From a virus, in IMG/VR virus record IMGVR_UViG_3300020005_000002, positions 1 through 40,569 of that record: 40,569 nucleotides of DNA; one strand, 5' to 3'. Shown one piece after another: positions 25,852 through 33,205 of the stretch. Under the pieces are notes generated by a model. That model saw nothing but the letters and a program-made list of their open reading frames with translations. It made no database searches and was not told where the DNA came from. Made by a program: the position numbers and the translations under genes. The stretch's first letter is position 1; each line of letters starts with the position of its first letter.

Positions 25852-26075
25852 AAAAGAGAAATCCAATTTTTGATTCTTTGGGTTATGTTCCGCCTGTTGT
25901 TTTATCTGAAAAACAACTAAAAATAAAACGAATAGAAGCACAAAAAGAATTAGAAGCAGAAAAAATAAAAAGGCGACAACTGCATGATACCGACATTGAA
26001 GCGTGGAAAAAATATAAAGAAGAAACGAGAGAAAAAATTAGTAAGTTACATAGCATAGTTACGAGAAATGTCTAA
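25848..26075 (+). CDS. Hypothetical charged protein
   Basis: A 75-aa protein, N-terminus MKKRNPIFDSLGYVPPVVLS followed by a long charged helix. It overlaps the leader frame by 4 nt and the next gene by 8 nt. No family is recognised; as the first full gene of the replication operon it may assist the organizer protein. Confidence 0.6.
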   Translation: MKKRNPIFDSLGYVPPVVLSEKQLKIKRIEAQKELEAEKIKRRQLHDTDIEAWKKYKEETREKISKLHSIVTRNV

Positions 26076-26826
26076 ACAACGATATATACAGGACAGCTTT
26101 TGGACTGACCCATATATTGAAACACTAAACCCAGAAGAAAAACTGCTTTTCCTTTATTATCTTACTAATCCACTTTGCAATATCGCAGGAATATACGAAA
26201 TAAGAGATAGTCGTGTATCTTATGAATTAAAAATAACCGAAAAAGAAGTGTCAAGTATAAAAAATAAGTTTGTAAAAGACAAAAAAATCCTTATATTAAA
26301 TGACTGGATTGTAATAATTAACTTCGCTAAACATCAATCACCGAACCCAAATGTGCTACTCGGAATGCAAAGGATTATAGATACCTTACCAAGCGACCTA
26401 AAGGCTTTGAAAGGCTTTGAAAGGCTATCACACTTTACTTTACTTAACTTAACTATACTTAATACCCCTTTTTCTCACGAAAAAGGGGAGGAAATCCAAC
26501 TATTAAAGAAAAATAAAATGGATATAGACTACGAAACAGGAGAACCCATACCAAAAAAACCGAAATCCCATAAAAGGGAAGACGTGATTCGCTTGGCGAA
26601 TCTCTTTGATGAAATGGCTTCAGAGTTTACCAAAGTCCGCATTCGCACTCCGAAATCATACTTTATAGTCTTGAATGCTATAAATACCCACAAATTAAAA
26701 CCAAAGGGGGTGGAAAAGTTATTTGAAGATTGGTTTAGAAATAATAAAGTAAAAAAAGAGGATAAGGTAAACCTGTCGTTCGCATTATCAGCCAATAACA
26801 TAAATGCCTTTAAGGTGTTAAATTAA
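26068..26826 (+). CDS. Replisome organizer / DnaD-like helicase loader
   Basis: A 252-aa protein. The N-terminal winged-helix domain (KQRYIQDSFWTDPYIETLNP, then EKLLFLYYLTNPLCNIAGIY, DSRVSYELKITEKEV) is typical of phage replisome organizers that bind the origin and load the host helicase. A linker of about 50 residues leads to a C-terminal helical region (HKREDVIRLANLFDEMA onward). The non-coding, DnaA-box region 600 bp upstream fits as its target. No helicase or polymerase is encoded here, so host replication proteins must be recruited. Confidence 0.75.
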   Translation: MSKQRYIQDSFWTDPYIETLNPEEKLLFLYYLTNPLCNIAGIYEIRDSRVSYELKITEKEVSSIKNKFVKDKKILILNDWIVIINFAKHQSPNPNVLLGMQRIIDTLPSDLKALKGFERLSHFTLLNLTILNTPFSHEKGEEIQLLKKNKMDIDYETGEPIPKKPKSHKREDVIRLANLFDEMASEFTKVRIRTPKSYFIVLNAINTHKLKPKGVEKLFEDWFRNNKVKKEDKVNLSFALSANNINAFKVLN

Positions 26827-31003: not shown

Positions 31004-31255
31004 CCTTTAGAAGTTTTTAATGCCACAGGGCAATTTCGAGCATTACATCTTTGGGTTCAAAAGAAATTAGGGAGTCCAAATTATTGTGAAAATTGTAAAA
31101 ATACAAAGTTAAAAAATAGGCAATATCATTGGGCAAATATAAGTGGAGATTATAAACGAATAACATCTGATTGGCGAAGATTGTGTGTTAAATGCCACAT
31201 GGCATTTGATAGACAAAAGAAGTTAAGTCAGAAAATCAAATTAAATACAAAGTAA
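31004..31255 (+). pseudogene. Decayed HNH endonuclease fragment
   Basis: The frame after the TGA at 31001 reads ALHLWVQKKLGSPNYCENCK, RQYHWANISGDYKRITSDW, RRLCVKCHMAFD and ends at TAA 31253-31255. It matches the C-terminal HNH half of the genes at 21201 and 40100 closely, even at the nucleotide level around TGATTGGCGAAG, but lacks all NUMOD segments and any start codon. It is therefore a remnant. It lies exactly where the 5' end of the next gene should be. The 95 nt before it hold no gene; TTTTAATGCC occurs at both ends of that stretch. Confidence 0.75.
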
Positions 31256-31275
31256 AAATATCTGGCATAGCACCT

Positions 31276-31794
31276 TTGCTTCAAGCAAAACATCCTACGC
31301 CAAAAGAAGAACAGGAAATCTTGAAAAGAAAATCTAGTCCAAAAGCGAAAGTAAAAGATTTAACGGATAAAGAACAGTTTGATATGCACTCTTACAAGAC
31401 CGCAAGTGGTAAGTTTATGCAACCTTCAGAGATGATAGAAGCCGCGATGGTTCGTGCGGCTACAACGTTTAAGATGGAAGGCAAGAAAACATACAAAGAT
31501 GTGATTAAAGGAGGCATCATCGTAGAACCAACCGAGATAATACATGAGAATCAGAAACCGATTGTGGATGCTCGCTGGGGAAGAAACAAAAACACAGGCG
31601 GTGCGGTATGGGTAGTAAGACCTTGTTTTCCAAAATGGAGTCTAACTTTCACGATTGACCTTCTTCAAGATGAAAGAGTGTCGGAGGAAATGTTACGGGC
31701 GATACTTGACTATTCGGGAATTTATGTCGGGATTTCTGCCTGGCGCCCGAAATTTGGTAGGTTTTCTGTCGTATCTTGGAAAAAAGAGGATTGA
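31276..31794 (+). CDS. Conserved-type phage early protein, start altered
   Basis: A 172-aa protein from TTG 31276, but the natural N-terminus is probably longer: the same frame upstream reads IKYKVKISGIAPLLQ without an ATG and is open to 31213, overlapping the endonuclease remnant. Features are KFMQPSEMIEAAMVRAATTF (about residues 51-70), VDARWGRNKNTG and an ending YVGISAWRPKFGRFSVVSWK (about 150-169). I recognise the pattern from uncharacterised phage proteins near recombination genes, function unknown. Expression may depend on the TTG, on an unusual start, or on RNA splicing. Confidence 0.65.
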   Translation: MLQAKHPTPKEEQEILKRKSSPKAKVKDLTDKEQFDMHSYKTASGKFMQPSEMIEAAMVRAATTFKMEGKKTYKDVIKGGIIVEPTEIIHENQKPIVDARWGRNKNTGGAVWVVRPCFPKWSLTFTIDLLQDERVSEEMLRAILDYSGIYVGISAWRPKFGRFSVVSWKKED

Positions 31795-31819
31795 CAATAT
31801 ATGGTAGTTTTGATATATT
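31791..31819 (+). promoter_or_regulatory. Consensus sigma70 promoter of endonuclease gene, leaderless
   Basis: TTGACA (31791-31796), a 17-nt spacer and TATATT (31814-31819), then 6 nt to the ATG at 31826. The -35 overlaps the stop of the preceding gene. Confidence 0.85.
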
Positions 31820-31825
31820 CAAATT

Positions 31826-32419
31826 ATGATAAAAAGAAAATGTATCAAATGTGGCAATGAGTTTAAAGCAAAAGCACATAATACTCGTTATTGCAAAGAC
31901 TGTCATAAATCAAAATGTGTCATTTGCAATAAAAGATTTATTGCATCAGCTAAATCAATTAAGCGTGGAGCAAAGTTTTGTAGTAATCGTTGCTGGATGA
32001 AGGCAAAATGGGAAGTTGAAAAATGTAGAGTATGTGGAAAAAAGATTAAAAAAAATGGAAAGCGAATACGATATTGTTCTGAAAAATGTTACGAAAAACA
32101 ATTCAAGATATGGGACAAAATAAGAACACCAGAAAAAAATCGTAAAAGTAAAGCTAAAAGTTGGATAAAGAAAAAAGATTTATTGTTATCGCTTGGTGGA
32201 AAATGCTCAGGCTGTGGAAATTCTGATTTACGAGTACTGGAGTTCTCTCATATTGGTGAAAAGAATGTTCGTTTAAAGAAAAGAGAAAAAATGAATCCGA
32301 TGACAAGATGGAAAATAATGGCAGATGAAATAAAAAAAGGTCGGGTAGTATTGGAGTGTGCTAATTGCCACCGAATCAGAACACACGAAGAATTTTGGAA
32401 AAACGAAACTATAAAATAA
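31826..32419 (+). CDS. Zinc-ribbon HNH endonuclease
   Basis: A 197-aa protein with three N-terminal zinc ribbons (CIKCGNEF...YCKDCH, CVICNKRF...FCSNRC, CRVCGKKI...YCSEKC; about residues 5-90), a basic linker, and an HNH-type end: KCSGCGNSDLRVLEFSHIG (about 133-151) and VVLECANCHRIRTHEEF (about 172-188). The ribbon layout resembles that of the intron endonuclease at 6037. It carries its own consensus promoter, so it is a self-contained mobile unit inserted between early genes. Confidence 0.85.
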   Translation: MIKRKCIKCGNEFKAKAHNTRYCKDCHKSKCVICNKRFIASAKSIKRGAKFCSNRCWMKAKWEVEKCRVCGKKIKKNGKRIRYCSEKCYEKQFKIWDKIRTPEKNRKSKAKSWIKKKDLLLSLGGKCSGCGNSDLRVLEFSHIGEKNVRLKKREKMNPMTRWKIMADEIKKGRVVLECANCHRIRTHEEFWKNETIK

Positions 32420-32449: not shown

Positions 32450-32749
32450 ATGAAAATGAAAAAATTGTTGAAGGTATATTCAAGAGATAAAATTGAGCAT
32501 ATTGAAAATCTAAATTTGGTGCAATTAAGCAGAGATTTATTGACAGCTATGATAGAAGCGACAGCTCTGATGGAAGGTCAGAAAATGACTGAACAGGGAC
32601 TAAAAGAAGCCAAGTTGGTGTTAGGTTACCTAAACGCCGCCAATTCAACTGTTAAGACTAGAATCGGCTGGTTTAAAATGTCAGGTTTACAAGATAAAGT
32701 TAAAAAAATCAAAGAAAGAACAGAAAAGACAATGGAGATAGGAAAATAG
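32450..32749 (+). CDS. Hypothetical helical protein next to the pentamer array
   Basis: A 99-aa helical protein (ATG 32450, or 32456 in frame) with LVQLSRDLLTAMIEATALME, LKEAKLVLGYLNAANSTVKT and a basic end. Small phage proteins with an LGYLNA-type motif exist but have no known function. Its stop codon supplies the G of the first GTNNN pentamer, so it directly abuts the array. It is a natural candidate for a partner of the array, by position only. Confidence 0.65.
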   Translation: MKMKKLLKVYSRDKIEHIENLNLVQLSRDLLTAMIEATALMEGQKMTEQGLKEAKLVLGYLNAANSTVKTRIGWFKMSGLQDKVKKIKERTEKTMEIGK

Positions 32750-32753
32750 TAAT

Positions 32754-33205
32754 GCTTCTGCGGTCGCGTACAGTGGAGTGGGGTTGGGTGGCGTAAGGTT
32801 ATGTTTAGTAAAGTAAAGCTTCTCGGGTACAGCATAGTGGTGTTAAGTTATGTGAGGCAAGGTTAAGTATAGTTCTGCTTTTTTTGTGATGTTCTGTGCA
32901 GTTGTGTGGTGTATCGTTCAGTGAAGTTTAGCTTTTGTTGTGTGGTTCGGTCGTGTCCTGTGCAGTGTGGTTAACTAGTGTAATGTGTGGTCTTGTGTGG
33001 TAAAGCTTCTAGGGTATAGCGATGCGAAGTGGAGTGATGTAGTGTTCCGTCTTGTTAGTTACAGTTCTGTAAAGCTTTTGGAGTGATGTTATGTGTTGTC
33101 TAGTTCAGTGTTGTATGGTGAAATAATGTTCAGTAGAGCTTCTATTGTTGCGTGAGGTGGTGTGAGGTCTAGTGACGTAGTGTAAAGTTTTGTAAAGCTT
33201 CTAAA
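32754..33205 (+). repeat. GTNNN pentanucleotide array with GCTTYTNNN dividers
   Basis: 452 bp in strict register. Eight 9-nt dividers (GCTTC or GCTTT, then T plus three variable bases) start at 32754, 32818, 32877, 32931, 33005, 33074, 33138 and 33197. Between them lie seven blocks of 11, 10, 9, 13, 12, 11 and 10 pentamers. Of these 76 pentamers 69 begin GT; the exceptions are four GC and one each CT, TT, AT. The three other bases vary freely, but AAA is favoured just before a divider. Further GT pentamers flank it at 32749 (in the stop codon of the previous gene) and 33206. No frame, terminator or CRISPR-like identity explains it. Confidence 0.95.

Follow-up and report, generated by a model that had tools for sequence, protein, structure and literature searches.

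The window, that is, the whole stretch of DNA analyzed here (40,569 bases, a virus record of IMG/VR, which places the locus in a virus or provirus), most probably contains a VIPR guide array and locus (probability of about 0.92), located on the genome of a phage or an archaeal virus and representing a variant without the first register guanine. VIPR (Viral Interference Programmable Repeat) is a CRISPR-related, virus-borne system reported in a preprint of April 2026, in which it is proposed as the root of CRISPR (PMC13142463). According to this source, its guide RNAs (vrRNAs) carry 9–16 YNNGG repeats and are coated by RAMP subunits, with the fixed bases setting the register and the variable bases reading target DNA non-contiguously; the NN bases pair with double-stranded DNA, two bases being read and one target base skipped (PMC13142463). 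For SUSP1, RNA binding and co-purification with the Vipr protein, the code, sequence-specific repression and reprogramming were shown; satellites and prophages are reported as carrying targets, and a total of seven types is distinguished, with GGY/NN "or a related consensus" and with differing array architecture, hammerhead-divided arrays being mentioned (PMC13142463). The preliminary description of the window, which knew of no described element of this form, is superseded on this point by the preprint.

The array occupied positions 32,754–33,205 of the plus strand and consisted, by sequence count, of seven vrRNA-like units with a G-Y core every 5 nt. Eight 9-nt dividers of the form GCTTYTNNN began at positions 32,754 (the first spanning 32,754–32,762), 32,818, 32,877, 32,931, 33,005, 33,074, 33,138 and 33,197. 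Block 1 (32,763–32,817) contained 11 pentamers, and blocks 2–7 (32,827–32,876, 32,886–32,930, 32,940–33,004, 33,014–33,073, 33,083–33,137 and 33,147–33,196) contained 10, 9, 13, 12, 11 and 10, respectively, giving 76 pentamers without a single indel. GT stood at the start of 69 of them (binomial P ~ 5 × 10−42 even when the local GT frequency was used), and a chance origin of the GT register is excluded; these counts coincided in full with the preliminary ones. The autocorrelation proposed there as a check showed an identity of 0.47 at lag 5 versus 0.20–0.31 at lags 1–4. Strict selection on GT had also been claimed, of which the selection on the register stood, but the core proved to be strictly G-Y rather than G-T (73/76, 96%): four of the seven exceptions were GC, and the first pentamer of the divider, GCTTY, itself fits the G-Y core. 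The base preceding G-Y was most commonly A (38%), and a strict GGY triplet was not found. The entropy of pentamer columns 3–5 was near the maximum (1.89, 1.96 and 1.82 bits), and the combination of two fixed and three near-random columns agrees with the earlier view that this is not a slippage repeat. The lack of an open frame, noted earlier, was confirmed, with none of the frames of the array staying open beyond 40 codons, and the array differed from a CRISPR array with identical repeats and unique contiguous spacers in its strict 5-nt register and its 9-nt dividers with three free bases. A search of Rfam with the array gave no family match, the dividers contained no inverted repeat or hairpin that could serve as a structured 3′ tail, and the array RNA folded less than shuffled sequences (−94.8 versus −113.0 ± 5.2 kcal/mol). 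In a whole-genome scan for 5-nt periodicity, the array was the only site of such strength in the window. The second-highest score (51.9) belonged to a coding, low-complexity site at 26,400–26,462 (plus strand) within the ORF 26,068–26,826, composed of AAAGGCTTTG repeats followed by ACTTT/ACTTA pentamers, which are probably unrelated to the array.

Scanning of viral contigs for (GTNNN)8GT yielded at least 120 matching stretches, some of which were plain pentamer microsatellites, while dozens were varied arrays built like that of the window but with other fixed bases. The plain microsatellites matching this pattern would fit an origin of the window array as a diverged pentanucleotide microsatellite or an assembly artefact, but the two fixed columns argue against it, and the finding of this design in isolated phages as well as in hundreds of contigs refutes it for the family; its probability is negligible. 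An all-against-all comparison of ORFs from 62 pattern-picked loci revealed one protein cluster beside the array in approximately 45 of the 62 loci, mostly within 50 nt of it, the figure being approximate because the cluster had also absorbed part of a second, neighbouring family. The cluster corresponded to PHROG 4652, annotated as being of unknown function, and a Pfam search gave no match for it. In the reverse test, which started from the protein, a 5-nt array was found nearby in 159 of the 160 loci or phages, although these include duplicates and are not all independent: in 9/9 phages found by tblastn (Alf5, MakoManhole, DSL-LC04, phiHSIC, Brocalys, Saal, Trine, ODay and LESphi2), in 65/65 viral loci retrieved with the profile (the DNA scan had also picked up four of the contigs, or their copies) and in another 85/86 loci, some of them on genome contigs with a DPANN archaea label. 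In the control, only seven array windows of 102 (3.5 kb, seven whole genomes) passed G ≥ 55; the 5-periodicity threshold was passed by 97% of regions near the gene versus 2% of those far away. One alignment (A1) includes a protein of family 2; the conclusions rest also on alignments A2–A6 and on single proteins. Relatives of the protein were also encoded on contigs labelled Aenigmatarchaeota, Parvarchaeota and Dehalococcoidales (L314, L315, L317 and L318); in L317, an array was not clearly visible within 1.5 kb, and this contig carried a nuclease-like ORF related to that of L143. In one clade (L144–L149, L168 and L316), a small HNH protein of ~90 aa, a possible nuclease vap (vipr-accessory protein), was recurrent downstream of vipr, next to the arrays. 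Apparent GTCNN/GTGNN arrays antisense to the gene were rejected as a class, being GAC/CAC types when read on the gene strand.

The window contained the corresponding gene, vipr, at about 31,225–31,794 on the plus strand (phrog_4652, E-value = 2.3 × 10−16; Cas7/RAMP fold). The ORF was open; its listed form begins at TTG 31,276, yet homology extends from about 31,243, so that the true start lies upstream, possibly at a rare codon. The start of vipr was overlapped by a segment at 31,020–31,254 (plus strand) that resembled the end of an HNH-type ORF rich in Cys (CENCKN...CVKCHMAFD), and vipr is thus flanked by two HNH-like genes. Downstream, vipr was separated from the array by an HNH endonuclease ORF of 197 aa (31,826–32,419, plus strand; phrog_1271, E-value = 1.1 × 10−15) and a 99-aa ORF (32,450–32,749, plus strand). 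The HNH ORF, which had no relative beside any other collected vipr locus, is probably an inserted homing-type gene, or it may be a vap. The 99-aa ORF, a candidate vap by position, belonged to no Pfam, PHROG or PADLOC family and had no relative at the other collected vipr loci; the preliminary description had suggested this protein, or host proteins, for a pull-down to identify a ligand of the array, a role that passes to Vipr. The gap between vipr and the HNH gene contained a putative sigma-70-like promoter, TTGACA-17-TATATT (31,791–31,819, plus strand; 11/12 consensus matches), from which the HNH gene, the 99-aa ORF and the array could be transcribed; promoter-like sites in that region were no more numerous than in shuffled sequences.

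A RAMP fold was predicted for the family from its glycine-rich motif before the structure search, which then confirmed it: the AlphaFold model of the L113 protein was assigned a Cas7/Csm3 fold by Foldseek, and that of the window Vipr (pLDDT 91) had its best matches among type VII Cas7 proteins (E-value = 1.2 × 10−7). Compared with PDB sequences, the family profile matched entry 36pp, "SUSP1 Vipr protein" (E-value = 2.7 × 10−30), and the window Vipr alone matched the same entry (E-value = 3.1 × 10−9). The window therefore combines a RAMP protein with an RRM core and glycine-rich loop, as judged from the 36pp match and the predicted Cas7 fold, with pentamers of fixed (G-Y) and hypervariable (NNN) bases in blocks of 9–13 repeats, within the 9–16 expected. 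Thus, the match to 36pp, the RAMP fold and the linkage to the array identify the window as a VIPR locus. A TRAP-like ring had been an early idea, which was dropped once the partner protein proved to be a RAMP.

Under the VIPR reading, Vipr, a single-domain Cas7-like RAMP, would polymerise on RNA copied from the plus strand of the array, with each pentamer held at its G-Y bases by one subunit, and each of the seven blocks would represent one guide RNA. The exposed variable bases would pair non-contiguously with double-stranded DNA, and the complex would repress genes of competing phages or satellites, the first register guanine having presumably been lost together with the Vipr residues predicted to read it. 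For the window itself, we infer that the array is transcribed, that its RNA is processed at GCTTYT, that each pentamer takes up one subunit and that DNA is targeted. The earlier suggestion that an oligomeric protein binds DNA or RNA at a ladder of sites fits best with a Cas7-like RAMP on RNA, with the amendment that the variable bases, by homology to VIPR, are considered to be a guide and not filler. Points that weigh against the VIPR reading are the unfixed first G, the lack of a target in the window and in four rule-based scans of viral contigs, the lack of a hairpin tail and of a recognised vap, the HNH gene between vipr and the array, and the ambiguous start codon of vipr.

Nine Felix O1-like phages were compared before the preprint was found and gave a result in agreement with it. 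In these phages, arrays lay on both sides of vipr, 8–19 GGYNN pentamers per block alternated with a conserved hairpin divider, and the blocks were preceded by a TTGACA-TATACT promoter on the same strand as the array. The register was kept while the variable bases changed, as the preliminary description had asked to be verified: G was conserved in 455/459 and Y in 458/459 pentamers, only 9 of 666 block pairs were related, and the dividers and genes were conserved, which demonstrates block turnover among related phages. Phage RNAs hijacking Cas proteins are known, and an RNA serving as a scaffold, sponge or decoy for the RAMP filament (e.g., an anti-CRISPR mimic), with neutral variable bases, would agree with the lack of a target found for the window blocks. 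This is quite improbable, given the unrelated blocks between conserved dividers and genes in near-identical Felix O1-like phages, as well as the sequence-specific repression and reprogramming described for SUSP1 in the preprint (PMC13142463). The strict register and noncoding position would also suit a DNA ladder, i.e., a centromere, origin or packaging site bound in double-stranded form, but the strict association with a RAMP fold that binds RNA, the same-strand promoter and the hairpin or tRNA-like dividers in other phages, and the co-purification of RNA with SUSP1 Vipr (PMC13142463) make it very improbable indeed.

Approximately half of the Felix O1-related records were without most of the vipr locus. 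FelixO1 itself (L212:633–914, against L130) had only one block left, together with a promoter whose −10 element was altered, and carried neither vipr nor the partner gene, as if the remainder had been deleted, which suggests a natural deletion derivative of the locus that lends itself as a control. In the Gordonia phages Trine and MakoManhole (L136:3570–3860 and L131:2975–3150), vrRNA blocks were divided by tRNA-like minihelices composed of an acceptor plus T-arm, GGTTCGACTCC, one of which in Trine was called a tRNA with a two-base anticodon by ARAGORN; this suggests vrRNA processing by host RNase P/Z as an alternative to hammerheads. Compact arrays with short dividers like those of the window were found at L057:4500–5300 (minus strand), L027:4550–5070 (minus strand) and L102:4720–5080; the dividers were GCAGA GCAGA plus TATTTTC, GCTAATGG and TCTTGGCTC, and the block ends were fixed and the middle variable. 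In the A4 clade (L234–L313; more than 200 viral loci), gene-strand triplets were CAC, CGC, GAC, GGC, GTC and GTT, so that the register triplet differs between phages and can be summarised as S-N-Y followed by two free bases.

The window array had the form NGYNN, i.e., the first G of the published GGY was free, leaving three variable bases, and by this unfixed G the window VIPR is a variant and not a member of type II. Within the RxRP-motif clade, such doublet arrays were found in 13 unique Vipr loci from five tree groups. An R/K residue at window position 130 was absent in 13/13 doublet loci and present in 62/68 triplet loci (Fisher's test, 7 × 10−11, uncorrected for phylogeny). This column was first spotted by eye; in a subsequent scan of 170 alignment columns it ranked third, below the acidic positions 51 and 172. 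The codons of the corresponding window residues Q51 (31,375), V130 (31,612) and A172 (31,738) lie within 31,375–31,740 on the plus strand, numbered from 31,225. Positions 51-130-172 were E/D-R/K-D/E in most triplet loci versus RVS, RTS, IVS, PIS, QVA and similar in doublets, and the three residues are predicted to form a pocket recognising the first guanine. SUSP1-type proteins, with Q-S-D at these positions and the first G at 78–83%, are by these sequence features intermediate between the two states. A decaying VIPR locus, split by the HNH gene, with the guanine pocket lost and the array drifting at its first G first, would account for the HNH gene between vipr and the array, the ambiguous start codon, and the fact that in the nearest relative, L143, the array is strictly GGT and the key position still holds R. 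We consider decay unlikely, since G-Y is still kept at 96% over 76 pentamers without an indel, the vipr ORF is open with a confident structure model, and doublet arrays, accompanied by loss of these same residues, recur in four other lineages, one clade comprising at least seven loci. A more far-reaching and rather doubtful proposal is that doublet VIPRs, having lost the guanine pocket, expose and read three variable bases per subunit step, a denser or contiguous code reached several times in parallel.

Target searches with the window blocks using codes with a skip of 0, 1 or 2 and the NNN code did not outperform shuffled sequences, either in the window or in 5.3 Mb (both strands) of collected loci. 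The in-register 5-nt (skip 3) search found nothing beyond chance within the window, and the same search with a block of the Felix O1-like phage wV8 found only itself, failures explained by the published rule, which skips 1 nt. Four 1-nt-skip patterns from four window blocks were scanned in viral contigs; three gave nothing, and the fourth matched six contigs (19/24 bases at best), with the four flanking pentamers at about the chance level, so that no convincing target was obtained in viral contigs for these four blocks.

The window demonstrates that the VIPR register motif is not fixed; gene-strand triplets across the examined loci comprised GGT, GGC, GAC, GTC, GTT, CAC and CGC. The register shrank to two bases in five tree groups together with a loss of charged residues, and the covarying residues point to what may set the register, which makes the number of bases read per Vipr directly testable through three side chains. 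If true, the doublet code would take VIPR one step away from its gapped code and closer to contiguous pairing of the CRISPR kind.

The NAGNN repeats bound by TRAP (trp RNA-binding attenuation protein) likewise combine a triplet with two free bases, ~11 per RNA; unlike Vipr, TRAP has an unrelated fold and function. Type III/VII Cas7 proteins (Csm3; 8z4j and 6xn3) share with Vipr the RAMP fold, the glycine-rich loop, the coating of guide RNA and repeat-like dividers, whereas the VIPR register is 5 and not 6, its register bases are sequence-specific and its code is non-contiguous; unlike CRISPR-Cas, the window had no repeats with acquired spacers, and no adaptation genes were found at it. In L143 (IMG/VR 3300036760_000785), the nearest protein relative (Vipr 42% identical), the array is likewise downstream of vipr on the same strand, but it consists of strict GGTNN arrays (23 + 20 pentamers), the covarying residues are D-R-D, and a nuclease-like ORF (DUF559-like by eye) lies between the arrays. 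Compared with SUSP1 VIPR type II (36pp; PMC13142463), the window has NGYNN in place of GGY, 9-nt dividers where SUSP1 has a structured tail, and no recognisable vap1, and its Vipr is without R/K and acidic residues at the covarying positions (Q-S-D in SUSP1, whose first G is kept at ~78%). Both have a homologous Vipr RAMP, an adjoining pentamer array of several units, with 9–13 repeats in the window versus 9–16 per vrRNA in SUSP1, and a location on a viral genome (PMC13142463).
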